Below the pieces are notes generated by a model. It made no database searches, was not told the origin of the DNA, and was given only the letters and a program-made list of their open reading frames with translations. A stretch of 64,000 nucleotides of DNA. Source: Rhodobacter sp. SGA-6-6. GTDB taxonomy: Bacteria > Pseudomonadota > Alphaproteobacteria > Rhodobacterales > Rhodobacteraceae. Every line of letters starts with the position of its first letter. The first letter of the stretch is position 1. Position numbers and translations under genes: made by a program. Below, piece by piece: positions 13,797-38,976 of the stretch. The DNA lies in assembly GCF_011043545.1 (NCBI RefSeq), contig NZ_JAAKGP010000004.1, positions 1 to 64,000 on the forward strand, written 5' to 3'.

Positions 13797-14007
13797 CGGG
13801 CGGGAACAGGCGAGGCACTGCCTCGCCCCCGCCCGTGCGGGACATATCACCCGGAGACCTGTCAGCACGAAACAAGTGAGGCCAGCGCCCGACCCGGCGG
13901 GCGAGAAGCGCCTGGCCCAAGGGCGGGGCGGGCGCTGGCCGGGCCTTGAGGGTCCGGCCGGACAAGGGGAAGCGTTGCGCGGTGGCGAAGGCGATGGCCT
14001 TCGCCAA
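13797..14007 (+). repeat. R1 four-hairpin repeat, copy A
   Basis: Fills most of the 280 bases between two convergent genes. Hairpin 1 spans 13797-13835 (CGGGCGGG/CCCGCCCG enclosing GGCGAGGCA-C-TGCCTCGCC). Hairpin 2 has 12-bp perfect arms GGCCAGCGCCCG (13880-13891) and CGGGCGCTGGCC (13929-13940). Hairpin 3, overlapping it, is GGCCGGGCC/GGTCCGGCC (13937-13959, one G-T pair). Hairpin 4 is TGGCGAAGGC-GATG-GCCTTCGCCA (13983-14006). A conserved unpaired segment with ATCACCCGGAGAC lies between hairpins 1 and 2. Copies B (33181-33360) and C (38659-38868) have the same order and orientation. Confidence 0.85.
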
Positions 14008-14044
14008 TGGAAAGGCGCAACATCGCGGGAGCGCCGGTCCTGAC

Positions 14045-15283
14045 CTACCCCGTCTCAGCCAGCCCGCCGCGCGAGGGCCGCTGCACCCCCAGCCGCGGAT
14101 GCAGCCGGCCGGCGATGCCCCAAGCCAGCAGCAGCCCCAGCCCCGATGCGGCGAAGATCCCCTGCAACGGCACCACGAACAGCACCAGCCAGGCCGCCCC
14201 CGGCGTCAGGATGCCCGACACGTCGCGGAAGCTGGAATAGACCGCGCTCATCTCGGTCCGTTCCGACGGCTTCACGCTCATCAGGAACGGCAGGCCGCCC
14301 ACCACGTCCAGCGTGACCAGGAAGGCCGAGGAGCAGAACATCAGCACCACCGCCGCCCAAGGCAGGAAGGCCAGCAGCGAAGCGGCGACCATCAGCGCCG
14401 CGCAGCCGAGGAAGGCGAAGCGCACCGACCGCCGCACCCCGGCCCGCCGCGCCCAGCGGTTGATCGCCGGGGCCAGGAACAGGATCGCGTTCGACACCGC
14501 CAGCGCGGTGCTGCCCACCATGTCGCCCAGACCCGCCTCGATGCAGAAGATCGGCAGGTAGACGACATAGACCCACCAGCCGCAGGACCGCATGACGGCG
14601 AAGAACCAGCCTGCGATCAGCCGCGGCTGGCGGAAGAACCGGCCGAGGAAGCCCAGCGGATTCACCGCCGGCCCGCGCGCCCGCTGGATCTGCTTGCCGT
14701 TGCCCAGCCGCAGCACCCAGAAGCTCGCCAGCAGCACCAGCGCGAAGCCGCCGGAGATCACGAAGATCCCCGCTCCCACCTGGGTATAGACGAAGGGCCC
14801 CAGCAGCGGCCCCAGCGTCCAGGGCGCGGCGGCATAGGCCATCTGCACCGACTGGCTGCGGCCCAGGTTCTCGCGCGCCACATAGTCCAGCACATAGGCG
14901 TTGAAGCAGACGAAGACCGTCGCCGTCGCCATCATGCTGAACAGCAGCGCCAGATGCGCCCCCAGGTTCGACCCCAGCGCCGCCATCGCCGCCCCCAGCA
15001 CATAAAGCAGGCAGCCCGCGGTATAGGCCCATCGGCGTGGAACGAAGCGGGTCAGCCAGGGCACCATCAGCCCGGTGACCAGCGACAGCACCCCGCCGAA
15101 CAGATAGGCCACCGAGACCGCCTGCGCATCGCCCAGCATCTCGTAGAGGTAAAGCGGCCAGACCGCGATCAGGGTGCCGCGCACTGCGGCTTCCAGCCCG
15201 GCCAAGGTGGCCAGATGCTCGATCTTCGGCGTTGCGGCGTGCTTGAGGTCAAGCGGAAGGTAACGGACGGCCATGCCGCCCAT
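14045..15283 (-). CDS. MFS transporter
   Basis: A 412-residue major facilitator superfamily protein with about 12 hydrophobic segments in two halves and a charged central loop near residues 190-205 (GNGKQIQRAR). A GRSQSVQMAYAAAP segment and a WWVYVVYLPIF helix are visible. Substrate is unknown and there is no helpful neighbour; recO is next upstream on the same strand, 52 bases away. Two starts are close: ATG 15283 (MGGMAVRY) and ATG 15274 (MAVRY). I give the longer one. The C-terminus is rich in Arg and Gly and ends near the R1 repeat. Confidence 0.8.
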   Translation of the reverse strand: MGGMAVRYLPLDLKHAATPKIEHLATLAGLEAAVRGTLIAVWPLYLYEMLGDAQAVSVAYLFGGVLSLVTGLMVPWLTRFVPRRWAYTAGCLLYVLGAAMAALGSNLGAHLALLFSMMATATVFVCFNAYVLDYVARENLGRSQSVQMAYAAAPWTLGPLLGPFVYTQVGAGIFVISGGFALVLLASFWVLRLGNGKQIQRARGPAVNPLGFLGRFFRQPRLIAGWFFAVMRSCGWWVYVVYLPIFCIEAGLGDMVGSTALAVSNAILFLAPAINRWARRAGVRRSVRFAFLGCAALMVAASLLAFLPWAAVVLMFCSSAFLVTLDVVGGLPFLMSVKPSERTEMSAVYSSFRDVSGILTPGAAWLVLFVVPLQGIFAASGLGLLLAWGIAGRLHPRLGVQRPSRGGLAETG

Positions 15284-15335
15284 TCACCCCGGCCCGGCCC
15301 GCGCCGTCTGTCGCGCCACCGACATGCGGCGTCGT

Positions 15336-16061
15336 TCAGGGCGCTTCCGCCGCCCGCGCCAGCAGGTCCAGCAGGCGCCCGCGCGCCTCGGGCAGCGGGC
15401 GGCCATGGTGCTCCTCGGCCAGGTCGCGGGCGAGGAAATGGCTGGTGATGGCAAGGCCCTGAAGCAGCGCAGCGGGTGTCATCGGGCCGCCGGTCATGCC
15501 CTCGGGCAGCGGGAACAGCTTTCCGGCCCAATCCCCCGCCCCGACCCGGCTGACGGCGCGGCCGGTCTTCGGGCTGACATAGGCCAGCCCCTGCCGTGTG
15601 CCGGTCACCGCGCAGGCGGTGAGGTCGAGGCCGAAGCCCAGTTCCTCCAGCAGCAGCATCTCCCACCGCAGATACTCCGCCTGCCAGCCCGGCGCGCCCA
15701 GCCGGTCCAGTAAAGCGCCGGTCGCCAGCCACAGCGCCTCGTGCGGATCGCGCTCGGGCAGGGTCACAGACAGCAGCGCGCAGACCGAGGCCAGCCCGGC
15801 CAGCGCCAGCCGGTCGGCCAGCAGATGCGCCCGGCTGCGGACCGGCTCCACCGTGAAGGCGCCCAGATGCTCGGACAGCCGGGCCGACCAGGCGACGGCG
15901 ACCTGCGTTCCGGGCTGCAGATGCGGCACCATCCGGCGCGAGGCCCCGCCGCGCACCACCCCCGCATGGCGGCCGTGGCCGCGGGTGAACACCTCGATGA
16001 TGGCGGCGCTTTCGCCATGCGGCCGCATGGAGAGGACCGCGCCTTCGTCCCGCCAGTCCAT
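15336..16061 (-). CDS. recO: DNA repair protein RecO
   Basis: A 241-residue RecO, the single-strand annealing and RecA-loading factor of the RecFOR pathway. The N-terminal OB fold starts MDWRDEGAVLSMRPHGESAA with the VVRGGASRR turn. The C-terminal helical domain has LRWEMLLLEELGFGLDLTACAVTG; the zinc-binding cysteine cluster of some RecO proteins is reduced here to a single Cys in that segment. The ATG at 16061 begins exactly at the family N-terminus. In most alphaproteobacteria recO follows era (with DUF1491 between); here it is 13 kb from DUF1491, with plus-strand metabolic genes inserted between. Confidence 0.9.
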   Translation of the reverse strand: MDWRDEGAVLSMRPHGESAAIIEVFTRGHGRHAGVVRGGASRRMVPHLQPGTQVAVAWSARLSEHLGAFTVEPVRSRAHLLADRLALAGLASVCALLSVTLPERDPHEALWLATGALLDRLGAPGWQAEYLRWEMLLLEELGFGLDLTACAVTGTRQGLAYVSPKTGRAVSRVGAGDWAGKLFPLPEGMTGGPMTPAALLQGLAITSHFLARDLAEEHHGRPLPEARGRLLDLLARAAEAP

Positions 16062-16102
16062 CAGCCGATCCTTCCACCGCCGCGGCCGTCCCGCAAGGGC
16101 GG

Positions 16103-16966
16103 TCAGTAGAGCCCCAGGTCGCGCAGCACCGAGGGCCAGGTCGAGATCCGCCGCCGCGCCTTGTCGGGGTCGCAGCCCGCCACCGCATGGGTGACGAGGT
16201 TCAACAGAGTCGCCAACGGCCCGGTGCTTTCGAGGAAGGCGCCGACCTTGGTCGCGGCATGGAAGACGAAGGGCGTATGCGCCTGCGCCCAGGTGTTCAG
16301 CTCGTCGGTGATCACCACCACGCCGATCCCCAGCCGCCGCGCGGTGCGGACGATCACCTCGGCCTCGCGGGCATAGGGCACCATGTCGACCAGCACCAGC
16401 GCCCGCGCCTCGCCCGCCCGCCGCTGCGAGGGCACCCATTCCGCCAGCCCGGCGTCATGCGCCGAGATGTAGCGCACCGATCCCCGCACGATGCTCAGCC
16501 GCCGGGCGAAATCCTCGGCCAGGCCGCGGACGGTCTGGAAGCCGGTGACGAAGACCTCGTCCGCGGCGTCGATGGTGGCGATGGCCTCGGCCCATTCCGG
16601 CCGGGCGATCTGCGCGCCGAGGCCGAGGATGGCATCGGCGTCCCGTTTCAACAGCGTGCCCAGTTCCCCCTCCAGCAGCCGGATGTAGCGGTCGGTCGCA
16701 TGGATGTGCAGGGCGGCGGGCGAGCCGATCTCGGCCTTGAGCTCGGTCATGCCGCGGAACCCCAGCCGGCGCAGGAAGCGGCTGACGGTGATCTCGCTGA
16801 CCCCGGTCTTGGCGGCGATCGAGGCGCCGGTCTCCAGCGGCAGCCCGGCCTCGTTCAGCATCAGCCACTGGGCGATCATCGCCTCGGATTTGGTCAGCCC
16901 GCCCTCCACCGCGCGCAGGCGGGCGGCAAGCGGGGAATCCGGGGTCTGCGGCGCGGGTTTGCTCAT
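16103..16966 (-). CDS. MurR/RpiR family transcriptional regulator
   Basis: A 287-residue regulator with an N-terminal RpiR-type helix-turn-helix (about residues 15-90; GASIAAKTGVSEITVSRFLR is the recognition region) and a C-terminal SIS domain (about 125-260; VFVTGFQTVRGLAEDFARRL) of the kind that senses phosphosugars or other metabolites. The ATG at 16966 fits the domain start; codons upstream are not conserved. It is divergent from the polyamine-type ABC transporter genes beginning at 17091 and is their most likely local regulator. It is also the only minus-strand gene inside the block that separates recO from DUF1491. Confidence 0.87.
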   Translation of the reverse strand: MSKPAPQTPDSPLAARLRAVEGGLTKSEAMIAQWLMLNEAGLPLETGASIAAKTGVSEITVSRFLRRLGFRGMTELKAEIGSPAALHIHATDRYIRLLEGELGTLLKRDADAILGLGAQIARPEWAEAIATIDAADEVFVTGFQTVRGLAEDFARRLSIVRGSVRYISAHDAGLAEWVPSQRRAGEARALVLVDMVPYAREAEVIVRTARRLGIGVVVITDELNTWAQAHTPFVFHAATKVGAFLESTGPLATLLNLVTHAVAGCDPDKARRRISTWPSVLRDLGLY

Positions 16967-17090
16967 GACATGATTTACAGCAAAGGAAGTGAATGTTAGC
17001 CTTCTGTCATAAAACAACATGCCCGAGTCGCGGCCGCAAAGGCAAGCCCTGCGCGCGCCCGAACCCGAAGGCAGCAACCGGGAGAAGACG
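16967..17090. promoter_or_regulatory. Divergent promoter region of RpiR gene and ABC operon
   Basis: 124 bases between two divergent starts. The 16967-17020 part is visibly A/T-richer than its surroundings and contains AAGGAAGTGAATGTTAGCCTT (arms AAGG/CCTT only), a candidate but weak dyad for the RpiR protein. GGGAGAAG at 17080-17087 is the Shine-Dalgarno of the binding-protein gene. I could not fix promoter boxes. Confidence 0.35.
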
Positions 17091-18116
17091 ATGAAAACGC
17101 AAATGGCGGGCCTCGCCTTGGCCCTTTCGCTGACTGCGGGCGCGGCGGCGGCGCAGGAGACGCTCTCGCTCTACAACTGGGGCGACTACATCAACCCCGA
17201 GGTGCTGACGAAGTTCACCGAGGAAACCGGGATCGCGGTGACCCTGGACACCTATTCCTCGAACGAGGAGATGCTGGCCAAGATCCAGGCCGGCGCCACG
17301 GGATACGACATCGTCTTCCCCTCGGTCCACATGAACGACATCATGCTGAAGCTGGGGCTTCTGGAGAAGACCGGCATCAACGCCCATCCCGACTTCAAGA
17401 ACATCGACCCGGCCTTCCTGCGCGCCAAGGAAGACCCGGCGGGCGAATACTGCCTGCCCTATGCCTGGGGCACGGTGGGCATCTTCTACAACGAGGATGT
17501 GACCGGCCCGATCACCGGCTGGGCCGATTTCTTCGCCATCCCGGAAAAGACCGGGGCCAAGATCACCATCCTCGACGACATGCGCGAGGTGCTGGCCGTG
17601 GGCCTGATCATGACCGGCAAGTCGGTGAACAGCGCCGACCCGGCCGAGGTGCAGGCGGCGGCGGATTACATCCTGTCGCACAAGGCCGCGGTCACCGCCT
17701 TCACCTACGAGGTTCCGGCGATGCTGACCTCGGGCGACATCGCGGCGGGGCATTTCTTCGTCGGCGGCAACGTCTTCTTCACCGAGATGCCGAACATCAA
17801 ATACATCATCCCGGCCGAGGGCGGCACGATGTATCAGGAGAACATCTGCGTGCTGGCCTCGGCCCCGCACAAGGAGAACGCGCAGAAGTTCCTGGAATTC
17901 TACCTGCGCCCGGAAATCGCCGCGCTGAACGTGGCGCAGCAGTTCAACGGCACCCCGAACATCCCGGCGAACGAGCTGACGCCCGACTTCATCCGCTCGA
18001 ACCCGAACATCAACGTCGGGCCGGAGACGATGGCGCGGCTGCAGATCTTCGAGGACATCGGCGCCGCGCTGAAGATCTACGACCGCGCCTGGAACACCAT
18101 CCGCACGGCACAGTAA
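17091..18116 (+). CDS. ABC transporter substrate-binding protein, PotD/PotF type
   Basis: A 341-residue periplasmic binding protein with an N-terminal signal peptide (cleavage after the AAAAQE region, about residue 20). The mature start TLSLYNWGDYINPEVLTKF is the hallmark of the spermidine/putrescine-binding PotD/F family, followed by YSSNEEMLAKIQAG and GYDIVFPSVHMNDIM. The ATG at 17091 has a GGGAG SD; an upstream in-frame ATG at 17019 would place the signal peptide internally. It heads the operon with ATPase, two permeases and a P1 peptidase. Substrate may be a polyamine or another cationic amine or amide; the peptidase neighbour points to a conjugated compound (inference). Confidence 0.9.
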   Translation: MKTQMAGLALALSLTAGAAAAQETLSLYNWGDYINPEVLTKFTEETGIAVTLDTYSSNEEMLAKIQAGATGYDIVFPSVHMNDIMLKLGLLEKTGINAHPDFKNIDPAFLRAKEDPAGEYCLPYAWGTVGIFYNEDVTGPITGWADFFAIPEKTGAKITILDDMREVLAVGLIMTGKSVNSADPAEVQAAADYILSHKAAVTAFTYEVPAMLTSGDIAAGHFFVGGNVFFTEMPNIKYIIPAEGGTMYQENICVLASAPHKENAQKFLEFYLRPEIAALNVAQQFNGTPNIPANELTPDFIRSNPNINVGPETMARLQIFEDIGAALKIYDRAWNTIRTAQ

Positions 18117-18123
18117 CGCCGAG

Positions 18124-19191
18124 ATGGACTCCCTGCTGGAAATCCGCGGCGCGCGGAGGGAATTCGTCACCCCGGAGGGCGACCGCATCGCCGCCCTCGA
18201 CGGGGTGGACCTCGATGTCGGCGCGAAGGAATTCGTCACCCTGCTCGGCCCCTCGGGCTGCGGCAAGACCACGCTCCTGCGGGCGATCTCGGGCTTCGAG
18301 GCGCTGGACGGCGGCACCATCCGGCTGGGCGGCGCCGACCTGACCGCGCTGCCGCCCTTCCGCAGGCCGCTGAACACGGTGTTCCAGTCCTACGCCCTGT
18401 TCGGCCACATGACCGTGGCCCGCAATGTCGGCTACGCGCTGGAGGTGGCCGGCGTGCCGAAGCGCCGGCGCGAGGCCGAGGTGGCCGAGGCGCTGGACAA
18501 GGTGGGCCTGTCCGGCATGGGCGCGCGGCGGCCGGGGCAATTGTCGGGCGGCCAGCGGCAGCGGGTGGCGCTGGCCCGGGCCATCGTGGCGAAGCCGCGG
18601 CTCCTCTTGCTGGACGAGCCGCTGTCGGCGCTGGACCGCAACCTGCGCCAGCAGATGCAGATCGAGCTGAAGACCCTGCAGGACCGGCTGGGCATCGCCT
18701 TCGTCTTCGTCACCCACGACCAGGAAGAGGCGCTGACCATGTCCGACCGCATCGTGGTGATGCGCGCGGGACGGATCGAGCAGATCGGCGCCCCGCGCGA
18801 CATCTACCGCCGCCCGAGGAACCGCTTCGTCGCCGAGTTCATCGGCGAGACCAACCTCTTCCCCGTCACCGTGGACCGGGTGGAGGGCCCGACCGCCCTG
18901 GCCCGCACGGCCGAGGGGGTGGAGTTGCTGCTGCCCGCCGCCGGCCGCAAGCCGGGCGAGGCGATCACGGCGATCCTGCGGCCGACCGATTTCACCCTGG
19001 CCGACAAGGGCATCCCCGGCACCGTCCGCAGCGCGGTCTACCTCGGCTCCGACCTGCACCTTTTCGTGGCCCCCGCCGCGGGCGGCCCGGAAATCCGCGT
19101 CACCGCCCGCGACGGGCAGGCGGCCGAGACCGGCGCTGCGGTGCATTTGGCGCATGACCCGGCACGGGTGCATGTGCTGGAGGGCGGCTGA
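18124..19191 (+). CDS. ABC transporter ATP-binding protein, PotA type
   Basis: A 355-residue ATPase that powers the adjacent polyamine-type importer at the inner membrane. Walker A GPSGCGKTT at 42-50, Q-loop within FQSYALFGHMTVARNV, signature LSGGQRQRVALARA near 141, Walker B LLLLDEPLSALD near 160 and the switch His in FVTHDQEEA. The last roughly 110 residues form a TOBE domain (IRVTARDGQAAETGAAVHLA). The ATG is seven bases after the binding-protein stop codon. It overlaps the following permease gene by one base (TGATG). Confidence 0.93.
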   Translation: MDSLLEIRGARREFVTPEGDRIAALDGVDLDVGAKEFVTLLGPSGCGKTTLLRAISGFEALDGGTIRLGGADLTALPPFRRPLNTVFQSYALFGHMTVARNVGYALEVAGVPKRRREAEVAEALDKVGLSGMGARRPGQLSGGQRQRVALARAIVAKPRLLLLDEPLSALDRNLRQQMQIELKTLQDRLGIAFVFVTHDQEEALTMSDRIVVMRAGRIEQIGAPRDIYRRPRNRFVAEFIGETNLFPVTVDRVEGPTALARTAEGVELLLPAAGRKPGEAITAILRPTDFTLADKGIPGTVRSAVYLGSDLHLFVAPAAGGPEIRVTARDGQAAETGAAVHLAHDPARVHVLEGG

Positions 19192-20078
19192 TGGCGATCC
19201 GCCGCCAGTCGGCGATCCTCGGGCTGCTGCTGGCGCCGGCCACGCTGTTCCTCGGCGTGTTCTTCCTCTTGCCGCTGCTCATCATCGCCCTTTTCTCCTT
19301 CCTGACCCCCGGCCTTTACGGCGGGGTGGAGTGGAGCTTCTACCACTGGAACTACGGCCGCATCTTCGGCTGGGCCGACGGCATCATGGAGGTGTTCGAG
19401 CCGGTCTACCTGCGCATCCTCTGGCGCTCGCTGTCCTTCGCGGCGCTGACGGTGCTGGTGACGCTGCTGCTGTGCTATCCGGTCGCCTTCTGGGTCTCGC
19501 GCCTGCCGGAACGCAGCCGCCTGTTCTTCCTGTTCCTGATCACCCTGCCCTTCTTCTCCAGCCTGATCGTCCGCCTCTACGCCTGGCTCCTGATCCTGAA
19601 GCCGACCGGCTTCCTGAACAGCGCGCTTATGGGCCTCGGCCTGATCGCACAGCCGCTGGAGATCCTCTACACCCCCACCGCCGTTGTCCTCGGCATGGTC
19701 TATGTCATGGTGCCCTTCATGTTCCTGCCGCTCTATGCCGCGGTGGACAACCTCGACCGCGCGCAGGTGGAGGCCTCGATGGACCTCGGCGCCAACCGGG
19801 TGCAGACCTTTCTGAAGGTGGTGCTGCCGCAGACCCTGCCGGGCATCATGGGCGGCGCGGTGATCGTCTTCATCCCCTCGGTCGGCAACTTCATCGTGCC
19901 CGACATCCTGGGCGGCGCGAAGGGGCTGATGATCGGCAACCTGGTCGAGCAGCAGTTCCTGTCGGCCCGCAACTGGCCCTTCGGCTCGGCGCTGTCAATG
20001 GTGATCATGTCGGTGGTGCTGACCGTGCTGCTGGTCGCGGTGACGCGGGCCAGGAAGACGGGGGCCGGCCATGCGTAA
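19191..20078 (+). CDS. ABC transporter permease, PotB type
   Basis: A 295-residue inner-membrane permease with six main hydrophobic segments and the BPD_transp_1 EAA loop near residues 197-215 (VEASMDLGANRVQTFLKVVLP). It pairs with the next permease to form the channel of the importer. The first hydrophobic segment (LGVFFLLPLLIIALFSFLTP) and the long periplasmic loop after it are typical of PotB. The ATG overlaps the stop codon of the ATPase gene, and the 3' end overlaps the next permease by eight bases, so tight translational coupling is expected. Confidence 0.92.
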   Translation: MAIRRQSAILGLLLAPATLFLGVFFLLPLLIIALFSFLTPGLYGGVEWSFYHWNYGRIFGWADGIMEVFEPVYLRILWRSLSFAALTVLVTLLLCYPVAFWVSRLPERSRLFFLFLITLPFFSSLIVRLYAWLLILKPTGFLNSALMGLGLIAQPLEILYTPTAVVLGMVYVMVPFMFLPLYAAVDNLDRAQVEASMDLGANRVQTFLKVVLPQTLPGIMGGAVIVFIPSVGNFIVPDILGGAKGLMIGNLVEQQFLSARNWPFGSALSMVIMSVVLTVLLVAVTRARKTGAGHA

Positions 20079-20907
20079 CCCCTGGGGATGGGCCGCGCTG
20101 ACCGGCTTCTCGCTGCTCTTCTTCGTCTTCATCTACGCGCCCTTGTTCGTGATCGTCGGCTATTCCTTCAACTCCAACCCGGTCAACATGATGATCTGGG
20201 AGCGGTTCACGCTGGACTGGTATACCGGCCTCTTCGGCCTGACCGAGCGGGTGATGGACCCCAACAGCCGCGCCGCCTATATCGAAAGCACCGACCAGAT
20301 GATCGCGGCACTGAAGACTTCGCTGACGGTCGCGGCCTTCACCACCACCATCGCCACGGTCCTGGGCACCGCCACCGCCATCGCCTTGGCGCGCTACCGC
20401 TTCCGGCTGCGGGGGTTCTACAACGGCTTCCTGATGCTGCCGATGATGATGCCCGACATCGTGCTGGGAATCGGCCTCTTGATCTTCTTCGTCACGCTGG
20501 GGATGCAGCTGTCGATGCTGACCATCGTCATCGGCCACTGCACCTTCCTGACCTCCTATGTCTTCATCATCGTGCAGGCCCGCATCGCCGGCATCGACCC
20601 CGCGCTGGAGGAGGCATCGGCCGACCTCGGCGCCAGCGAATGGGTCACGCTGCGCAAGGTGCTGCTGCCGCAGCTGGCGCCCGGCATCCTTGGCGGGGCG
20701 CTGCTGGCCTTCGTCATCTCGATGGACGATCTGGTGATCACCTATTTCATCTCGGGCACCGGCGACACCACCCTGCCGGTCTTCATCTTCGGCATGATCC
20801 GCCGCGGCGTGAAGCCCGAGATCAACGCCATCGCCACCCTGATCATCCTCGCCTCGGTGGTGATCGCCGCGGCTGGCCTGTGGCTGCGCAGCAGAAAGAC
20901 CGACTGA
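20071..20907 (+). CDS. ABC transporter permease, PotC type
   Basis: A 278-residue permease, second half of the channel. It shows the PotC-like N-terminus (LFFVFIYAPLFVIVGYSFN), a six-segment core and an EAA motif LEEASADLGASEWVTLRKVL near residues 180-200, followed by ISMDDLVITYFISGTGDTTLP, which is highly typical of PotC/PotI. It overlaps PotB by eight bases and stops one base before the start of the P1 peptidase gene. Confidence 0.92.
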   Translation: MRNPWGWAALTGFSLLFFVFIYAPLFVIVGYSFNSNPVNMMIWERFTLDWYTGLFGLTERVMDPNSRAAYIESTDQMIAALKTSLTVAAFTTTIATVLGTATAIALARYRFRLRGFYNGFLMLPMMMPDIVLGIGLLIFFVTLGMQLSMLTIVIGHCTFLTSYVFIIVQARIAGIDPALEEASADLGASEWVTLRKVLLPQLAPGILGGALLAFVISMDDLVITYFISGTGDTTLPVFIFGMIRRGVKPEINAIATLIILASVVIAAAGLWLRSRKTD

Positions 20908-20908
20908 G

Positions 20909-21979: not shown

Positions 21980-22008
21980 GGGCCGGTCCGCCGCCGGAAG
22001 GCGGTGCC

Positions 22009-22053
22009 TTGCAGGTTCCGGCACAGTTATGTAATGTTATATCATTACATAAC
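22009..22053 (+). promoter_or_regulatory. Zur-type operator overlapping a promoter
   Basis: A perfect dyad with 11-bp arms, GTTATGTAATG (22026-22036) and CATTACATAAC (22043-22053) around TTATAT, closely resembles alphaproteobacterial Zur boxes, which contain AATGTTATA cores. TTGCAG at 22009-22014 is a fair -35, putting the -10 region inside the dyad, so bound repressor would block transcription. The gene 12 bases downstream encodes a COG0523 GTPase, a family repeatedly under Zur control, which supports the assignment. No zur gene lies in the window. Confidence 0.75.
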
Positions 22054-22064
22054 CTGAGGACGCC

Positions 22065-23288: not shown

Positions 23289-23289
23289 G

Positions 23290-23556: not shown

Positions 23557-23603
23557 CGGCCCTCGGGCGGCCGGTCTAGAAAGTTGTAGGAACAATACTA
23601 CAA
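23553..23603 (+). promoter_or_regulatory. Promoter and GntR-type operator of the amino-acid ABC operon
   Basis: TTGACG (23553-23558) and CTAGAA (23576-23581), 17 bases apart, form a plausible -35/-10 pair. Directly downstream, where transcription would start, lies the dyad TTGTAG (23584-23589) / CTACAA (23598-23603) with an eight-base spacer. TTGTA-type dyads are typical of HutC-subfamily GntR regulators, and such a regulator is encoded in the operon at 26146. Autorepression is therefore likely. The operator ends 14 bases before the first ATG. Confidence 0.6.
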
Positions 23604-31801: not shown

Positions 31802-31853
31802 CTGCTGCCTCATCTGCCTGTCGGGCCGCTTCTTGCGCGGCGGGGGTGGGGAG

Positions 31854-32279
31854 TCAAGTCGCGGGGCCTGCGACCGGCCGCGCCTCGATCACCACGAAGG
31901 CCTGCGCCCAGGGGTGGTCGTCGGTCAAGGTGACATGGATCACGGCCTCGTGGCCGGCGGGCGTCATCTGCGCCAGCCGCTCGGCCGCCCAGCCGGTGAC
32001 ATGCATCACCGGCTGGCCCGAGCGCAGGTTGGTCACCGCCATGTCCTTCCAGCCGATCCCCATCCGCAGCCCGGTGCCGAGCGCCTTGGAACAGGCCTCC
32101 TTCGCCGCCCAGCGTTTGGCATAGGTCGCGGCCACCTCGCGGCGGCTTTCCGCTTTCCGCTGCTCGGCTTCGGTGAAGACGCGATTGCGGAAACGGTCGC
32201 CGAACCGGGCCAGCGTGGCCTCGATCCGGTCGATGTTGGCAAGGTCGGTGCCGATGCCGAGGATCACCGCCCGCCCCAT
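31854..32279 (-). CDS. acpS: Holo-[acyl-carrier-protein] synthase
   Basis: A 141-residue AcpS that attaches 4'-phosphopantetheine from CoA to acyl carrier protein. The family N-terminus [14 protein letters not shown] carries the metal-ligand Asp, and [16 protein letters not shown] near 55-70 carries the second acidic residue and CoA-binding Lys. Length is typical. The ATG at 32279 has no good SD; a GTG four codons in (position 32267) is a possible alternative that matches shorter homologues. It lies between pdxJ, from which the R3 hairpins separate it, and lepB. Confidence 0.93.
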
Positions 32280-32286
32280 GCGCGAC

Positions 32287-32333
32287 GCAAATTCCTTAGA
32301 AGGAATTTGCCAAAATTCTTCAAAGAATTTTGG
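32287..32333. repeat. Tandem near-palindromes (R3 copy 2) between pdxJ and acpS
   Basis: Two back-to-back near-perfect palindromes: GCAAATTCCTT-AG-AAGGAATTTGC (32287-32310) and CCAAAATTCTT-CA-AAGAATTTTGG (32310-32333), sharing one base. The A/T content is far above the surroundings. In the minus-strand pdxJ-acpS direction they come right after the pdxJ stop and before the acpS start, so they could attenuate or stabilise the operon transcript. Copy 1, same architecture, is at 1905-1954. Confidence 0.7.
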
Positions 32334-32337
32334 CGGC

Positions 32338-33090
32338 TCATCGGATGCCCCGCGCTTCGTCCATCCGCCGGCGCATCTCCTCGATCGCCGGGCCGAGGCC
32401 GCGGTAGATCGCCTCGCCGATCAGGAAATGGCCGATGTTCAACTCCATCACCTCGGGAAAGGCGGCGACCGGGGCTACGTTGTCGTAGGTCAGGCCATGG
32501 CCGGCATGGACCTCCAGCCCCAGCGACTGCGCCAGCGCCGCACCCTTGCGCAGCGCGGCCAGTTCCGCCTCGGCCTCGTCCTGGCGGCCCTCGGCGTGGA
32601 GGTCGGAGTAATGGCCGGTGTGCAGTTCCACCACCGCCGCGCCGATGCGGGCGCTGGCCTCGATCTGCGCGGGCGCGTGGCCGATGAACATCGAGACGCG
32701 GATGCCCGCCTCGCGCAGCGGCGCGATATAGGCGGCCAGCCGGGATTCATCCCCCGCCACGTCGAGGCCGCCCTCGGTGGTGCGTTCCTCGCGCCGTTCG
32801 GGGACGAGGCAGGCGGCATGGGGTTTCAGCCGCAGCAGGATCGCCTGCATCTCCTCGGTGGCGGCGCATTCGAAGTTCAGCGGGATGCCGATGCCGGCGG
32901 CCAGCGCCTCCATGTCGGCGTCGCGGATATGGCGGCGGTCCTCGCGCAGATGGGCGGTGATGCCGTCTGCCCCCGCAGTCTCGGCCAGGATCGCCGCGCG
33001 CAGCGGGTCGGGCCAGGCCGAGCCGCGGGCATTCCGCACCGTCGCCACATGGTCGATGTTGACCCCCAGTCTCAGCCGCCCGCCCGCCAT
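32338..33090 (-). CDS. pdxJ: Pyridoxine 5'-phosphate synthase
   Basis: A 250-residue PdxJ, the TIM-barrel enzyme that condenses 3-amino-1-hydroxyacetone phosphate with deoxyxylulose 5-phosphate to pyridoxine 5'-phosphate. The N-terminus [19 protein letters not shown], the [16 protein letters not shown] block near 40 and ELHTGHYSD and [11 protein letters not shown] near the end are diagnostic. The ATG at 33090 is the family start; the frame runs open upstream through the R1 repeat, giving a spurious long ORF. It is in the conserved rsh-DUF2062-pdxJ-acpS-lepB order, interrupted upstream only by R1 copy B. Confidence 0.95.
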
Positions 33091-33180
33091 GACGCCGCTC
33101 CGTTTCCCTGTTCCCCAGTCGGGCCGCAGACTAGGGCGGATCGCCAGCCCCCGCAACCGCGGGCGGTGGGACGCATGGGC

Positions 33181-33360
33181 CGGGCGAGAACAGGCGAGGA
33201 CTGCCTCGCCCCCGCCCGCGCGCAGCGGTTCAGCCGGAGACGGTGCGGCACATAATCCCGGGAGGCCAGCGCCCGACCCGGCGGGCGCTGGCCGGGACCT
33301 ATGGCCCGGCCGGGACAAGGTGAGCCGTTGCGCGGTGGCGAAGGCGATAGGCTTCGCCAA
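33181..33360 (+). repeat. R1 four-hairpin repeat, copy B (internally shortened)
   Basis: Lies between two minus-strand genes. Hairpin 1 is GGCGAGG-ACTG-CCTCGCC (33193-33210), flanked by CGGGCGAG and CCCGCCCG. Hairpin 2 keeps both 12-base arms, GGCCAGCGCCCG (33264-33275) and CGGGCGCTGGCC (33282-33293), but its loop is only six bases because about 31 bases present in copies A and C are missing. Hairpin 3 follows with GGCCGGG/CCCGGCC (33290-33312). Hairpin 4 is TGGCGAAG/CTTCGCCA (33336-33359). Preserving the stem while deleting the loop suggests the fold is what is selected or what the element needs. Confidence 0.85.
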
Positions 33361-33381
33361 GGCCGACGGAGACGGCAGCAG

Positions 33382-34095
33382 CTACGGCGCCCCCGGGCCG
33401 TCGTCGCCTTCGCCTTCCCCGGCCTCGCCGTTCTCGCCGCGGTGCTTCAGCCGCTGCGCGGCCTTGGCCACCGCCTCCTTCAGCCGGCTGCGCCGCTCCT
33501 TCCGCTCGCTCGCCTTGGCGGCGCGGGCCTTCTGGTAGGCCTCGACCAGCGGGATGGTGATGTAATAGGCGATCACCGACAGCACGATGCCGGGGCCGAG
33601 CGCGCCGATGAAATAGGGCCAGTAGATCTCGTGCCAGAACCGGATCAGCCCGTCCCACCGCGCCACGTCGTGGGTGAAGATCGACTTGATGTTGAACCAC
33701 AGGTCGCTGCCCGCGATCTCGGTCGCGGTGCGGATGTAGTCCCAGCTGAGCGGCTTCTCGATCCCCAGGATCCAGTGGCCCAGGGTCATCGCCAGCACGG
33801 CGAAGAAGGGCGTCGTCACCGGATTGGTGTTGAAGGTCGCCAGCAGCGCCGCCAGCAGGTTGCCGCGGATCGCCCGGCTGGCGGCCCAGGCGGCGATGAA
33901 CTGCAGCCCCGGCAGCGGCAGGAAACCGATCAGCGACCCGGCGAAGACCCCGCGGGCGATGCGGTGCGGCTGGTCCGGCAGCCGGCGCATCCGGTAGATC
34001 ACATAGCGCGTGGCGCGCTTGAAGCCGGAACGGGGGTAGACCTGCTCGCGCAGCCAGGCGCCCCAGCCCATCGGATCCCTTCGCTTGAAGACCAA
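33382..34095 (-). CDS. DUF2062 domain-containing membrane protein
   Basis: A 237-residue inner-membrane protein with DUF2062: RIARGVFAGSLIGFLPLPGLQ near 45-65, NTNPVTTPFFAVLAMTLGHWI near 88-108, and a later hydrophobic segment near 165-185 (IGALGPGIVLSVIAYYITIPL). The last 40 residues are highly charged and Gly/Glu rich. Function unknown. The TTG at 34095 is supported by the conserved VFKRRD start and a GGAAGGA about ten bases upstream; an ATG at 34071 would drop eight conserved residues. It is downstream of rsh in the usual alphaproteobacterial order. Confidence 0.82.
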   Translation of the reverse strand: MVFKRRDPMGWGAWLREQVYPRSGFKRATRYVIYRMRRLPDQPHRIARGVFAGSLIGFLPLPGLQFIAAWAASRAIRGNLLAALLATFNTNPVTTPFFAVLAMTLGHWILGIEKPLSWDYIRTATEIAGSDLWFNIKSIFTHDVARWDGLIRFWHEIYWPYFIGALGPGIVLSVIAYYITIPLVEAYQKARAAKASERKERRSRLKEAVAKAAQRLKHRGENGEAGEGEGDDGPGAP

Positions 34096-34149
34096 ACCTA
34101 GCTTCCTTCCATTCCGGGCCAGCGCGGCCCGGCCTTCCCGCAGCCCCGG

Positions 34150-36267
34150 TCAGGGCTTGCGCGACAGATCCCGGTGGCGACTGATCTGGGCCACGTCCGT
34201 CTCGGCTTCAAGCGCGGTCATGACCTTGTGCAGATGTTCGACATCGCGCAGGTCCACGTCAACGATCAGCCGGTAAAAATCCGGTTTGCGGTCCGTGAAC
34301 CGCAGGTCCGAGATATTGGCCTTCTGCTCTCCGATCAACGTGCAAATCCGCCCCAGCACGCCGGCGTCGTTCGAGATGGTCAGGTCGAAGGACACCGTAT
34401 GCACCGCGGGATGGCGGCCGGTCTTCCAGTGCAGGTCGACCCAGCGGCCGGTCTGGCTTTCGAACTCCTCCAGCGCCGGGCAGTCGATGGCATGGGCCAC
34501 CACGCCCTTGCCGCGATAGGTGATGCCGACGATCCGCTCGCCCGGCAGCGGCTGGCAGCAGGGCGCGCGGATCAGCGACTGGTCGGCGGCCAGGCCGAGG
34601 ACCGGGCGCTTGCCGTCCACCTCCTCGGCCTGGGCCATCGACAGTTCGGGGTAGAGCAGCTCCACCACCTTGCGCGCGGCGATCTCGGCGCTGCCGAGGC
34701 GGGCCAGCAGGTCCTCCTCGCCGGCAAGCCCCATCATCTTGGCCGCGGTGCGCAGCGCCTTGTCGGTGGCCTTCTTGCCGACATGGTCGAAGGCGGCGCG
34801 GGCCAGTTCGTGCCCCAGCCGGACGAAGCGGCCGCGGTCCTCGGCCCGCAGGCTGCGGCGGATCGCCGCCTTGGCGCGGCCGGTGGCGACGATGTCGATC
34901 CAGCTGGGCTGCGGGCGCTGGCCCTCGGCGGTGATGATCTCGACCGACTGGCCGTTCTTCAGCCGGGTCCACAAGGGCACCCGGATGCCGTCCACCTTGG
35001 CGGAAACGGTGGAATTTCCGATCCGCGTATGGATGGCATAGGCGAAATCCAGCGGCGTCGCCCCGCGCGGCAGCTGGATCACGTCCCCCTTCGGCGAGAA
35101 GCAGAAGACCTGGTCGGAATACATCTCCAGCTTGACGTTTTCCAGGAATTCGTCGTGATCCTCCTCGTCCAGCCTTTCGGTCAGGCTGGCGATCCACTTG
35201 GCCGGATCGACCGCGAAGGGATTCTGCGCCCGCACGCCCTCGCGATAGGACCAATGCGCGGCGACCCCGGCTTCGGCCACCTCGTGCATCTCGCGGGTGC
35301 GGATCTGCACCTCCACCCGCTTGCCGTCGCGTCCCGAGACGGTGGTGTGGATCGAACGGTAGCCGTTCGACTTCGGCTGGCTGATGTAGTCCTTGAACCG
35401 CCCCGGCACCGCCCGCCAGCGCTGGTGGATCACGCCGAGGATGCGGTAGCAGTCCTGCACCGAGCCGCAGATGACCCGGAACCCGTAGATGTCGGACAGG
35501 CGCGAGAAGGCCAGGTCCTTTTCCTGCATCTTGCGCCAGATCGAATAGGGCTTCTTGGCGCGGCCGTAGACATCGGCCTCGATCCCGGCCTTCTCCAGCT
35601 CGTGCCTGATGTCGCCGGTGATCTTGTGGACCACATCGCCCGATTCCTTCTGCAGCACCAGGTAGCGGCGGAGGATCGAGTTGCGGGCCTCGGGGTTCAG
35701 CACCTTGAAGGCGAGGTCTTCCAACTCCTCGCGCATCCACTGCATCCCCATCCGGCCGGCGAGGGGGGCGAAGATCTCCATCGTCTCGCGGGCCTTCTGG
35801 GCCTGCTTCTCCGGCTTCATCGACCGGATGGTGCGCATGTTGTGCAGCCGGTCGCCCAGCTTGACCAGAATCACCCGCAAGTCCTTGGACATCGCCATGA
35901 ACAGCTTGCGGAAGTTCTCGGCCTGCTGGCTGCCGGCGTTGGACAGTTGCAGGTTGGTCAGCTTGGTCACGCCGTCGACCAGCTCGGCCACGTCCTCGCC
36001 GAACAGCTCGGCGATCTCGCCGTAGGTGGAGCGGGTGTCCTCGATGGTGTCGTGCAGAAGAGCGGTGACGATGGTGGCGTCGTCCAGCCGCTGCTCGGTC
36101 AGGATGGCGGCGACGGCGACGGGATGGCTGAAATAGGGCTCGCCCGACTTGCGGAACTGGCCCTCGTGCATCTTCAGCCCGTAGGCATAGGCCTTGCGGA
36201 TCAGCTCGGCATTGCAGCGCGGGTTGTAGTTGCGGACCAGGGCGATGAGGTCTTCGACGTCGATCAT
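34150..36267 (-). CDS. rsh: Bifunctional (p)ppGpp synthetase/hydrolase (RelA/SpoT homologue)
   Basis: A 705-residue long RSH enzyme, the single stringent-response protein of most alphaproteobacteria. The hydrolase HD domain has HDTIEDT at 72-78; the synthetase domain follows (about 230-350) with SDIYGFRVI and KSNGYRSIHT; TGS (about 380-445), the helical region and a C-terminal ACT domain (about 630-700) complete it. Both catalytic halves look intact. The ATG at 36267 (MIDVEDLIALVRNYNP) matches homologues; a GTG two codons upstream is less likely. rpoZ precedes it by 42 bases, the pairing found across proteobacteria. Confidence 0.96.
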   Translation of the reverse strand: MIDVEDLIALVRNYNPRCNAELIRKAYAYGLKMHEGQFRKSGEPYFSHPVAVAAILTEQRLDDATIVTALLHDTIEDTRSTYGEIAELFGEDVAELVDGVTKLTNLQLSNAGSQQAENFRKLFMAMSKDLRVILVKLGDRLHNMRTIRSMKPEKQAQKARETMEIFAPLAGRMGMQWMREELEDLAFKVLNPEARNSILRRYLVLQKESGDVVHKITGDIRHELEKAGIEADVYGRAKKPYSIWRKMQEKDLAFSRLSDIYGFRVICGSVQDCYRILGVIHQRWRAVPGRFKDYISQPKSNGYRSIHTTVSGRDGKRVEVQIRTREMHEVAEAGVAAHWSYREGVRAQNPFAVDPAKWIASLTERLDEEDHDEFLENVKLEMYSDQVFCFSPKGDVIQLPRGATPLDFAYAIHTRIGNSTVSAKVDGIRVPLWTRLKNGQSVEIITAEGQRPQPSWIDIVATGRAKAAIRRSLRAEDRGRFVRLGHELARAAFDHVGKKATDKALRTAAKMMGLAGEEDLLARLGSAEIAARKVVELLYPELSMAQAEEVDGKRPVLGLAADQSLIRAPCCQPLPGERIVGITYRGKGVVAHAIDCPALEEFESQTGRWVDLHWKTGRHPAVHTVSFDLTISNDAGVLGRICTLIGEQKANISDLRFTDRKPDFYRLIVDVDLRDVEHLHKVMTALEAETDVAQISRHRDLSRKP

Positions 36268-36309
36268 CGCCACCCTGCCCGCGGGGCGTCAGCCCCGCCA
36301 GTCCTTGCC

Positions 36310-36663
36310 TTAATGCTCGCCCTGGGCTTCCATCAGCGCGCGGAGGAGCTTCTCCTCGGACATGTCGTCCACCACCGGGCGGTCGATCTCGCCGGTCATC
36401 AGAAGGGCCATCTGGTCCTCTTCCGGCTCGTCCACCTCGATCTGGGTCTGGTGCGATTCGATCATCCGCTCGCGCAGGACATCGGCCGACTGGGTCTCGT
36501 CGGCGATCTCGCGCAGGGCGACGACGGGGTTCTTGTCGTTGTCGCGGTCGATGGTGATCGGCGAGCCCGAGGCGATCTCGCGCGCACGATGGGCCGAAAG
36601 CAGAACCAGCTCGAAGCGGTTCGGAACCTTGTCAACGCAATCTTCGACCGTCACGCGGGCCAT
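36310..36663 (-). CDS. rpoZ: RNA polymerase subunit omega
   Basis: A 117-residue omega subunit, which assists assembly and stability of RNA polymerase and forms part of the ppGpp binding site in E. coli. It begins with the diagnostic [20 protein letters not shown], then [13 protein letters not shown] and [12 protein letters not shown]. The acidic C-terminal extension ([13 protein letters not shown] onward) is normal for alphaproteobacteria. It lies directly upstream of rsh and downstream of a good promoter (36697-36725). Confidence 0.96.
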
Positions 36664-36696
36664 GGGTCACCTCTGTCGCCTGGGCGGGGAGTGGCC

Positions 36697-36725
36697 TATC
36701 TATGCCGGAAGATGCCGCTTGACAA
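36697..36725 (-). promoter_or_regulatory. rpoZ-rsh promoter
   Basis: On the minus strand TTGTCA (36725-36720) and TAGATA (36702-36697) are separated by exactly 17 bases, a good housekeeping-sigma promoter. Transcription would start near 36690, giving a leader of about 25-30 bases before the rpoZ ATG at 36663. Confidence 0.6.
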
Positions 36726-36777
36726 GCGAAGATCGCACAAAATGCCGTGTGCCGGCGGGGGATCCTCCCGCGCCTCC

Positions 36778-36818
36778 GGCTCGTCGTCGCGAGGAGCGGC
36801 GAAGCCAGGCGACGAGCC
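36778..36818 (-). terminator. Hairpin after folK
   Basis: Nine-base perfect arms GGCTCGTCG (36778-36786) and CGACGAGCC (36810-36818) with further partial pairing inside lie six bases beyond the folK stop on the minus strand. No T-run follows, so if it terminates folk transcription it is of the atypical GC-rich kind. The rpoZ promoter just downstream fits a transcript boundary here. Confidence 0.4.
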
Positions 36819-36823
36819 GCCCG

Positions 36824-37393
36824 TCAGAAAGGCACCACCTCGTCCCGCGCCGTCTGCGGCAGGGCCTCCAGCATCTGCCGCACCGTCAGCCCCAGCCGCG
36901 GATGCCGCCAGTCCGGCGCGACCTCGGCCAGCGGCACCAGCACGAAGGCGCGGTCCTGCAGCCGCGGATGCGGCAGGATCAGCCGGTCCGGCGCCTGCCG
37001 CGCCTGCTCCGCAGCCGGCAGGTTGCGCCACCTGTCCTGCGTCTCCGCATCCGGCCGCACCGAATCGCCTATCGCCAGCAGGTCGATGTCCAGCGTCCGC
37101 CCGCCCCAGCGTTCCAGCCGCTCGCGGCCGAAGCGCGCCTCCACCCGGTGCAGCGCGGCAAGGGTTTCCGTCGGGTTCGCCAGCACCGGCCCGGTCACCG
37201 CCGCCGCCGCATTGGCGTAATCCGGCCCGGCGCCGGCGGGAAAGCAGGGCGTCCGCCAGATCCGGCTAAGCCTGCCGATATGCAGCCCTTCCTCCGCCAG
37301 CGCCTCAGCCGCCGCCGCCAGGGTCTCCCGCGGGCTGCGGCCGGCGAACGGCAGGTTCGCGCCGAAGGCGAGCAGGGCCTCTACAGACATCAT
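36824..37393 (-). CDS. folK: 2-amino-4-hydroxy-6-hydroxymethyldihydropteridine diphosphokinase
   Basis: HPPK of 189 residues, transferring pyrophosphate from ATP to the pterin precursor of folate. It shows the N-terminal LAFGANLPF, the SRIWRTPCFPAGAGPDYANAA substrate segment, RWGGRTLDIDLLAIGD with the catalytic Asp pair near 105, and LILPHPRLQDRAFVLVPL near 140. I choose ATG 37393 (MMSVEALL); ATG 37390 is equivalent, and an upstream TTG at 37402 is less likely. folP is not adjacent. It is divergent from the NYN-domain gene. Confidence 0.93.
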   Translation of the reverse strand: MMSVEALLAFGANLPFAGRSPRETLAAAAEALAEEGLHIGRLSRIWRTPCFPAGAGPDYANAAAAVTGPVLANPTETLAALHRVEARFGRERLERWGGRTLDIDLLAIGDSVRPDAETQDRWRNLPAAEQARQAPDRLILPHPRLQDRAFVLVPLAEVAPDWRHPRLGLTVRQMLEALPQTARDEVVPF

Positions 37394-37547
37394 GTCGCGC
37401 AAGCTTGACCTGTTCTATTGTTGACTTGCCGTGCCGCCGTGCCGACGCTATCCACGGCAGGTTCCCCGATGGATTTCACTAGTCCACATTGACCACTCGC
37501 GGAAGTCCGTTTGGCGGAGCATTGTATTTGTCGAGGGGAAAGTACCA

Positions 37548-38120
37548 ATGTTCTACAAGGACGAACGGCTCGCGCTGTTCATCGACGGGTCGAATCTCTA
37601 CGCCGCCGCAAAGGCGCTTGGCTTCGACATCGACTACAAGCTTCTGCGGATGGAATTCATGCGCCGGGGCAAGCTGTTGCGCGCCTTCTACTATACCGCG
37701 CTGCTGGAGAACGAGGAGTATTCGCCGATCCGCCCGCTGGTGGACTGGCTGCATTACAACGGCTTCACCATGCGCACCAAGCCGGCCAAGGAATACACCG
37801 ACAGCCAGGGCCGCCGGAAGGTGAAGGGCAACATGGACATCGAGCTGACGGTCGATGCCATGGAGCTGGCGCCCCGGGTGGACCATGTGGTCCTGTTCTC
37901 CGGCGACGGCGACTTCCGGCCGCTGGTGGAAAGCCTGCAACGGCAGGGGGTGCGGGTCTCGGTGGTCTCGACCATCCGCAGCCAGCCGCCGATGATCGCC
38001 GACGAGCTGCGCCGCCAGGCCGACAACTTCATCGAGCTGGACGAGCTGCGCGACGTGATCGGCCGCCCGCCGCGCGAGCCGCGGCCCGCGACGGAAGAGG
38101 CCGCGGTCGGCGCCAAGTGA
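37548..38120 (+). CDS. NYN domain-containing protein (LabA/DUF88 family)
   Basis: A 190-residue protein of the PIN-like NYN fold. The acidic residues expected for metal-dependent ribonucleases of this type are visible: LFIDGSNLY near residue 11, KGNMDIELTVDAM near 96 and VLFSGDGDFRPLV near 118. The family includes cyanobacterial LabA; bacterial members are thought to act on RNA, but the substrate is not known. GAGGGGAAAG (37533-37542) is a strong SD before the ATG at 37548. The 154 bases shared with divergent folK contain several TTGAC motifs but no clear promoter pair. Confidence 0.88.
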   Translation: MFYKDERLALFIDGSNLYAAAKALGFDIDYKLLRMEFMRRGKLLRAFYYTALLENEEYSPIRPLVDWLHYNGFTMRTKPAKEYTDSQGRRKVKGNMDIELTVDAMELAPRVDHVVLFSGDGDFRPLVESLQRQGVRVSVVSTIRSQPPMIADELRRQADNFIELDELRDVIGRPPREPRPATEEAAVGAK

Positions 38121-38172
38121 TCTGGCCGCGGGCGGTTTCCGCCCCCGGCCGGGCCGCACCTCCTGGGGAGAG

Positions 38173-38619
38173 GTGGCGGCCGTCCCGGGCGCCGGCGTGA
38201 CCGGCCTCGCCGGGCTGTTCCTGGCGGCCTTCCTTGCCGCCACGCCCGTTCCCGTTCCATCGGAACCCGTGTTCCTTGGCCTTATGGCCACGGGCCGGGC
38301 ACTGCTGCCGCTGGTGCTGGTGGCCTCGGTGGGCAACATCCTCGGCTCCTGCGTGACCTATGTCATCGGGCGGGCGGCGGAGCGCCTGAAGCACCGGCGC
38401 TGGTTTCCGCTGCCGCCCGCCGCGCTGGAGCGTGCGCAGCGCTGGTGGGCCCGCTGGGGCCTGTGGTCGCTGCTTCTGTCCTGGGCGCCCGGCGGCGACG
38501 CGCTGGTGGCGCTGGCCGGGCTGATGCGGGTGCCGCTCTGGCGCTTCCTGCTGCTGGTGGCGCTGGCGAAGACCGGCCGCTACGCCGTGCTGGCGCTGGC
38601 GGGGGCGGCGGTGATCTGA
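38173..38619 (+). CDS. YqaA family (SNARE-associated/DedA-like) membrane protein
   Basis: A 148-residue membrane protein with four hydrophobic segments resembling the short YqaA subgroup of the DedA/VTT superfamily: LFLAAFLAATPVPVPSEPVF near 17-36, VLVASVGNILGSCVTYVIG near 52-70, and a glycine-containing LLSWAPGGDALVALAGLMR near 99-117. DedA-type proteins support membrane homeostasis and lipid-carrier transport; the YqaA role is unknown. The start is a GTG at 38173; GGGGAGAGGT immediately upstream is a plausible SD. R1 copy C begins 39 bases after the stop. Confidence 0.75.
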   Translation: MAAVPGAGVTGLAGLFLAAFLAATPVPVPSEPVFLGLMATGRALLPLVLVASVGNILGSCVTYVIGRAAERLKHRRWFPLPPAALERAQRWWARWGLWSLLLSWAPGGDALVALAGLMRVPLWRFLLLVALAKTGRYAVLALAGAAVI

Positions 38620-38976
38620 GGCACCGCCTCGGCACTGAAGGACGATCTCCGGTCCGGCCGGGCGGGATCAGGCGAGGCACTGCCTCGCCCCGCCCGTGCG
38701 CGACCTATCACCCGGAGACGGAGGCAGCACGAGACCCGGAGAGGCCAGCGCCCGACCCGGCGGGCGAGAAGCGCCCGCCGAGGGCGGGGCGGGCGCTGGC
38801 CGGGCCTTTGGGGCCCGGCCGGACAGGGGGCACCGTTGCGCTGTGGCGAAGGCGATGGCCTTCGCCAAGGACACCGAACGGGCAGCACGGCAACCGGCCC
38901 GCGCCGATCTCGGCCGCCGCACTGGACGCCGCCGCGCTTTGCCCCTACCTCTGGCACCAGCCCCGAAGGACCCTCC
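38620..38976 (+). repeat. 357-base gap holding R1 four-hairpin repeat, copy C (38659-38868)
   Basis: Between the YqaA-like gene and ispH. Hairpin 1: CGGGCGGG ... CCGCCCG enclosing GGCGAGGCA-C-TGCCTCGCC (38659-38696). Hairpin 2: GGCCAGCGCCCG (38743-38754) / CGGGCGCTGGCC (38790-38801). Hairpin 3: GGCCGGGCC / GGCCCGGCC (38798-38806 / 38812-38820), perfect here where copy A has a G-T pair. Hairpin 4: TGGCGAAGGC / GCCTTCGCCA (38844-38853 / 38858-38867). Orientation matches copies A and B. Of the remaining sequence, AAGGA at 38966-38970 is the ispH SD; I see no clear promoter. Confidence 0.85.

Follow-up and report, generated by a model that had tools for sequence, protein, structure and literature searches.

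Dispersed intergenic copies of an ordered four-hairpin element in the genome of Rhodobacter sp. SGA-6-6

Introduction

Some BIMEs (bacterial interspersed mosaic elements) bind gyrase, and PATE-type elements are non-autonomous derivatives of the IS200/IS605 family. REPINs are described as pairing conserved palindromes with less conserved spacers (PMC3116915), IS608 and ISDra2 are reported to insert into the lagging-strand template (PMC6006769), and Escherichia coli KOPS are stated to point from the replication origin toward the terminus (PMC2680272). We have analyzed a stretch of 64,000 nucleotides from Rhodobacter sp. SGA-6-6 (contig NZ_JAAKGP010000004.1, positions 1 to 64,000; here called the window), in which a preliminary description had recorded three copies of an array of four hairpins. 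These copies belong to a family of about 200 members, dispersed between genes and built of four hairpins in a fixed order.

The element resembles REPs (repetitive extragenic palindromes), BIMEs, and REPINs in its high copy number, its intergenic and palindromic nature, its conserved arms and variable spacers, its arrays in some genomes, and its lineage-specific abundance; it differs from them in comprising four different hairpins in fixed order within one oriented unit of about 210 to 235 bp, in lacking a GTAG/CGTC tag, in residing in a genome without detected Y1_Tnp, and in its strong replication polarity there. It shares with non-autonomous IS200/IS605 derivatives a hairpin-based makeup without visible terminal repeats, and its orientation bias in this genome recalls the lagging-strand insertion noted for that family in PMC6006769, but no cognate transposase was found in the genome, the element has more hairpins, and no target motif was identified. 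Like KOPS (GGGNAGGG), it is genome-wide and replichore-polarized in this genome, although it is a 210-bp multi-hairpin unit on the opposite strand, patchy between species, and unpolarized in the other carriers tested. The BOX and RUP repeats of Streptococcus pneumoniae, small interspersed repeats of little-known role (PMC3049150), come from a different phylum and are likened to it by description, not sequence. The element is thus REPIN/BIME-like in behavior and not a REP by definition. Titles and abstract beginnings in the open-access literature, subscription papers lying outside this scope, contained no description of it, and neither Rhodobacter nor Paracoccus is mentioned in the main text of a survey of GTAG/CGTC REPs (PMC3733652). 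It is therefore a multi-hairpin repeat family not described in Rfam 15 or the open-access literature searched, and within that scope the preliminary description was right in finding no named family that fits.

Copy number and anatomy

The core of hairpin 2, GAGGCCAGCGCCCGACC, was matched 196 times at no more than one mismatch in the 4.29-Mb genome, compared with 0 matches for the reversed pattern, which excludes chance as the source of the repeat; exact cores numbered 145 (73 + 72). A 231-bp query retrieved itself and at least 39 near-full-length matches at 87 to 91% identity, 40 of 461 candidates having been scored. The family was analyzed by profile hidden Markov model and alignment covariation over 1.48 Mb of the genome, comprising 106 stretches around exact hairpin 2 cores together with the window. 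There the profile gave 177 matches, 164 of them full length, a count in which partial copies without the core are underrepresented because the core guided the choice of stretches. Element fractions and stem conservation carry the same bias toward hairpin 2; hairpins 1, 3, and 4 are also conserved in the 25 of 164 copies that lack an exact core (identities to the consensus of 0.96, 0.89, and 0.97). The preliminary description had proposed a search of the whole genome and of relatives, and this search shows that the array is not limited to three copies but forms a genome-wide family that other genera also carry. Within the window, alignment bore out the plus-strand orientation, common hairpin order, and shared linkers reported for the three copies. 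The features are as follows.

13797 to 14007, plus strand: copy A, full four-hairpin element in its long form (alignment and profile match)
33181 to 33360, plus strand: copy B, short form without the inner hairpin of hairpin 2 (alignment and profile match)
38659 to 38868, plus strand: copy C, full four-hairpin element in its long form (alignment and profile match)
38659 to 38696, plus strand: hairpin 1 of copy C, with outer stem CGGGCGG...CCGCCCG and inner stem GGCGAGGCA/TGCCTCGCC; covariation
38743 to 38801, plus strand: hairpin 2 of copy C, GGCCAGCGCCCG/CGGGCGCTGGCC enclosing an inner hairpin; the nearly invariant core of the family
38802 to 38816, plus strand: hairpin 3 of copy C, with a GGGCC/GGCCC core that covaries among copies and from species to species
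38844 to 38867, plus strand: hairpin 4 of copy C, TGGCGAAGGC-GATG-GCCTTCGCCA
42545 to 42576, plus strand: solitary hairpin 2-like fragment

The element measures about 210 bp, and weak conservation extends some 12 nt to the left and 9 nt to the right, giving about 235 bp. In the consensus, hairpin 1 (CGGGCGG / CCGCCCG enclosing GGCGAGGC / GCCTCGCC) is followed by a linker, hairpin 2 (GGCCAGCGCCCG / CGGGCGCTGGCC enclosing the inner hairpin GGCGGGCG-AGAAG-CGCCCGCC), hairpin 3, a further linker, and hairpin 4 (TGGCGAAGGC-GATG-GCCTTCGCCA). Copy B does lack the inner hairpin, as had been noted, and this form recurs in 3 of the 164 full-length copies, B included; the other three of the six short copies have different deletions. 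The solitary fragment at 42545, also reported earlier, is real, with 15 exact bases. At 42655 to 42700 on the minus strand of the window lies a palindrome (GGAGGCCGGCGCCCGACCGCGGGTGGGCGC) that resembles hairpin 2 but belongs to another sequence type; a similar copy occurs in another stretch (L018).

Hairpins and linkers have diverged very unequally: mean divergence between copies in the genome is 1 to 6% in hairpins (about 4% in stems) and 30 to 36% in linkers (about 32% overall). Stem divergence is about 3.5% at any linker divergence and is lower (2.0%) for the 8 closest pairs only; nearest-neighbor linker divergence has a median of 0.149 and a minimum of 0.043, and the highest pairwise identity between copies is 0.949. 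We infer that dead copies in decay would not produce this pattern, whereas constraint acting on every copy would, as would repeated selection of hairpins competent for copying.

Distribution in other genomes

A scan of genome contigs with an exact pattern gave at least 73 loci, and the matches listed included Rhodobacter metagenome-assembled genomes (MAGs), Frigidibacter, Paracoccus, Pseudorhodobacter, Fuscovulum, Kandeliimicrobium, and a Rhodobacteraceae MAG. Core counts at no more than one mismatch were 225, 113, and 157 in Rhodobacter MAGs, 32 in F. albus, 32 in Frigidibacter sp. C8, 30 in Pseudorhodobacter, 25 in Rhodobacteraceae MAG50, 25 in P. lichenicola, and 8 in P. shandongensis, all with reversed controls of 0; F. 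blasticum and Kandeliimicrobium had 3 each, with reversed controls of 1 each. Among 244 genomes of the order (101 genera), three had more than 3 core matches, namely Rhodobacter sp. SGA-6-6, one with the counts and places of F. albus (32), and one with the counts of the JADCDI MAG (225); the other 241 had 0 to 3, like reversed controls. Within the genus, 5 of 13 genomes matched the 231-bp query, with 10, 1, 2, and 1 matches, mostly partial, in the four besides this genome and none in 8 of the 12 others. One match in congener G001 covers query positions 11 to 218; locus L031 of that congener and L134 of Fuscovulum blasticum DSM 2131 show identical sequence, so that the genus of the window probably includes that species.

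Five congeners lack the element at the site of copy B and have a shorter gap there. Measured between identical alignment ends in the congener and in this genome, the gaps are 79 versus 348 bp in G010 (87% identity), 125 versus 362 bp in G007, 117 versus 376 bp in G005, 67 versus 292 bp in G003, and 155 versus 374 bp in G006. Candidate empty sites, of the kind that the preliminary description had proposed to look for, are present at this one site, where the extra DNA in this genome exceeds the 180 bp of copy B. The distance between flank matches is 174 bp in G008 and 1,989 bp in G001, and the other five congeners match the left flank only.

In Rhodobacter MAG loci (L074, L102, and L129, for example) the element forms head-to-tail arrays, with 19 of 42 start-to-start spacings at 236 to 243 bp, 21 at 88 to 210 bp, and two at 248 and 264 bp, partial matches included. 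By eye, some of these arrays have an extra hairpin between units, and many MAG matches lie at contig ends, so that MAG copy numbers may be underestimated.

Covariation and the RNA question

In an alignment of 58 near-full-length sequences chosen from the loci examined, 98.1% of cells were paired and 13 of 44 pairs changed on both sides; the covariation score was 0.225, compared with 0.097 for shuffled and at most 0.076 for slid structures, although relatedness of sequences inflates such counts. Stem covariation, which the preliminary description had suggested testing, is therefore present between species. Hairpin 1 reads GGCGAGGCA/TGCCTCGCC in one form and GGAAACGCA/TGCGTTTCC or GGAAATGCA/TGCATTTCC in others, and hairpin 4 has GGCGAAGGC or, alternatively, GGCAGGGGC, GGCAAAGGC, or GGCGGCGAC, each with its own complement.

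These compensatory changes favor a family of structured non-coding RNAs with many transcribed loci, as does the excess of G-T over A-C departures in hairpin 2 (39 versus 6 cells). Over all hairpins, however, distinct G-T and A-C states are nearly equal (22 versus 17), which leaves the outcome of this RNA-strand test mixed; perfect short-loop palindromes suit DNA equally well, and an overall fold did not emerge. Consensus folding had suggested that linkers 1 and 3 form a long-range helix, which was rejected on energies of -20.63 kcal/mol for native and -20.71 kcal/mol for swapped pairings across 156 copies of this genome. The two linkers do not coevolve, which we take to mean that the element comprises four independent hairpins and not a single fold. 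Rfam covariance models gave 0 gathering matches in the window and, for copy C, two sub-threshold matches (E of 0.023 and 0.91) far below the gathering scores of their families. We accordingly consider an RNA family very improbable: of the earlier suggestion of a structured RNA, the covarying stems stand, but position and orientation track gene 3' ends and replication, not transcription.

Position relative to genes

None of the 164 full copies overlaps a gene called in this analysis by more than 60 bp. The copies lie in 63 convergent, 87 co-directional (55 antisense and 32 sense), and 14 divergent contexts. Among the gaps of 50 bp or more that lack the element in these stretches, 90 are convergent, 374 co-directional, and 203 divergent; convergent gaps are enriched in copies and divergent gaps are depleted. 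The median distance is 31 nt to gene 3' ends (n = 213) and 121 nt to 5' ends (n = 115), the corresponding values in co-directional gaps being 28 and 135 nt. Flanks are G-rich at the left and C-rich at the right in all four gene contexts.

The copies of the window fit the earlier account of one convergent and two co-directional gaps. Copy A lies between the ORF (open reading frame) at 13381 to 13764 (plus), which we take to encode a META-domain-like protein, and that at 14045 to 15283 (minus), presumably an MFS transporter; copy B lies between two minus-strand genes, the ORF at 33382 to 34095 and, on the opposite side, what appears from its protein sequence to be pdxJ; copy C lies between two plus-strand genes, the ORF at 38173 to 38619, presumably DedA-like, and a gene that we take to be ispH.

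Proximity to gene 3' ends, by position, makes a terminator role possible, and the element could on this basis be a bidirectional 3'-end module, whose hairpins on either strand would terminate transcription or shield the 3' ends of mRNAs and would insulate adjacent genes. The enrichment of convergent and depletion of divergent gaps, and the strong retention of stems across copies, agree with such a module, as does a resemblance, weak and insignificant (E of 0.91), of hairpin 3 to part of the small RNA SorX. Yet the sequence has no T-tract after hairpins 3 and 4, orientation tracks replication and not the flanking genes (more co-directional copies are antisense than sense), the replication bias is the same in all four gene contexts, and the 12 other genomes of the genus have no match or 1 to 10 mostly partial ones. 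We regard this explanation as possible but rather unlikely.

The intergenic sequence also has a distinct, recurrent REP-like palindrome, GTAGGGCGGGG-TTCA-CCCCGCC (around L148:3238-3330, for example), which is often only 8 to 17 nt away from an end of the four-hairpin element. By a loose pattern of up to 3 mismatches, such a GTAG-tagged palindrome occurs within 200 bp of 51 of the 164 copies; the element ends themselves have no GTAG/CGTC tag in the alignment. Other intergenic repeats in the 1.48 Mb include 15-mers of the AAATATCCCCGCCGG type (21 counts) and the GGGGCAGAATGCCCC type (17 to 19 counts).

Orientation and replication

By contig skew, 140 of the 164 copies lie on the C-rich strand (132 to 135 with windows of 40 to 150 kb); the intergenic skew of single stretches gives a weaker bias, with 107 of 164 on that strand and 57 on the G-rich side. 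Because copies sharing a contig are not independent, we note that 16 of 17 contigs agree by majority, with one tie, contig C44 being split 8 to 7. Neighboring copies agree in orientation in 117 of 147 pairs, compared with 73.6 in shuffles (maximum of 10,000, 97). The bias is shared by all four gene contexts, convergent gaps alone having 55 of 63 copies on the C-rich strand, and 53.6% of genes are on the G-rich strand. With 91 G and 73 C, the consensus of the element is G-rich yet lies on the C-rich strand, and the polarity is therefore not compositional matching.

The KOPS-like motif GGGNAGGG, taken as an independent marker, occurs on the strand opposite to the elements 420 times and on the same strand 117 times, and with the elements masked the 8-mer most skewed relative to their direction is CCCTGCCC, the complement of GGGCAGGG. 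The KOPS-like motif presumably points from origin to terminus in this genome too. Element by element, 139 of 164 copies (85%) are anti-KOPS, compared with 788 of 1,493 genes co-KOPS (52.8%) and an unbiased 53 of 108 for the separate REP-like palindrome; with rising stem difference, the anti-KOPS proportions are 62 of 72, 44 of 51, and 33 of 41. In contigs C44 and C65 of this genome, both the direction of the elements and the local GC skew switch partway along, possibly at a replication terminus, at an origin, or where a rearrangement has occurred.

A polarity about as strong as that of the KOPS-like motif, similar in conserved and diverged copies and accompanied by constrained stems, is what a polar chromosome-organizing site would display, were a hairpin- or sequence-binding protein to use the roughly 200 oriented copies as signals in segregation, fork control, or supercoiling, in the manner of KOPS or of gyrase-binding BIMEs. 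This we judge unlikely, since the element is absent or scarce in congeners, 241 of the 244 genomes of the order have at most 3 core matches, and the other carriers tested have no polarity.

Mobility and the search for a mover

The reading that we favor, at a probability of roughly one half, is a non-autonomous, hairpin-recognized mobile repeat, REPIN/BIME-like, amplified by a replication-coupled process. Of the possibilities raised in the preliminary description, a non-autonomous mobile or REP/BIME-like element is the best supported, by the high copy number, the mostly full-length units, the element-free congener gaps at one site, and the patchy distribution; strict REP membership fails because no Y1/RAYT was found in the genome and the element has no GTAG tag. 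A trans-acting enzyme would recognize the hairpins in their folded form, probably in DNA that becomes single-stranded at the replication fork, and would copy the element into new intergenic sites; fork-coupled copying would give rise to the replication polarity, selection would remove insertions in genes and promoters, and after a burst of amplification the stems would have been kept while the linkers drifted. Mobility is likely but old, and no Y1 transposase (IS200/RAYT) that could serve as its enzyme was detectable in this assembly.

The Y1_Tnp domain (PF01797) had no match in this genome, with 5 of 14 control genomes matching, and one marginal match in 8 other carriers; a RAYT/IS200 mover was ruled out for this genome on that ground. 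A reverse-transcriptase partner or group II intron was likewise rejected, the only PF00078 reverse transcriptase found in the genome being a Drt2-like defense enzyme. This Drt2-type gene lies at L252 (G000:C13:6694-7290), near a gene whose product we take to be a single-strand-binding protein. A phage origin was also discarded, as the element has no match in phage records and the exact hairpin 2 pattern is absent from viral contigs; two Leisingera plasmids have a short hairpin 2-like stretch only.

Several observations weigh against the mobile-repeat explanation. No candidate enzyme emerged, and in the stretches read, the genes between close copies look, by eye, like ordinary chromosomal ones. 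No terminal inverted repeats or target duplication, the marks of a classical MITE, are visible in aligned ends and flanks, the insertion ends not being exactly mapped. There are no recent copies, the maximum pairwise identity giving no sign of current movement, and flat stem constraint across linker divergence is equally expected from selection for function at each copy. The copies of F. albus (18 of 38 anti-KOPS) and Frigidibacter sp. C8 (11 of 17), from 40 of 80 intended stretches, showed no polarity, and by local skew they lean the opposite way, the C-rich strand having 9 of 38 and 4 of 17; Rhodobacter MAG loci gave 17 of 35 anti-KOPS, on short contigs with weak power. Polarity is hence not a general property of the family.

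A more speculative proposal, which we consider improbable, is a new class of replication-polarized multi-hairpin chromosomal element with a dedicated hairpin-recognizing protein, which would have spread through the copying of single strands at the fork, with no Y1 transposase involved, and would now be maintained as a genome-wide directional signal at gene 3' ends.

An ordered array of four hairpins in about 200 copies, with 85% replication polarity and no sign in its genome of the known palindrome-moving enzyme, points either to an undescribed mobilizing enzyme or to an undescribed polar chromosome signal. Whether palindromic repeats present in many copies are parasites or belong to the chromosome is an old question, for which this element provides a clean test.

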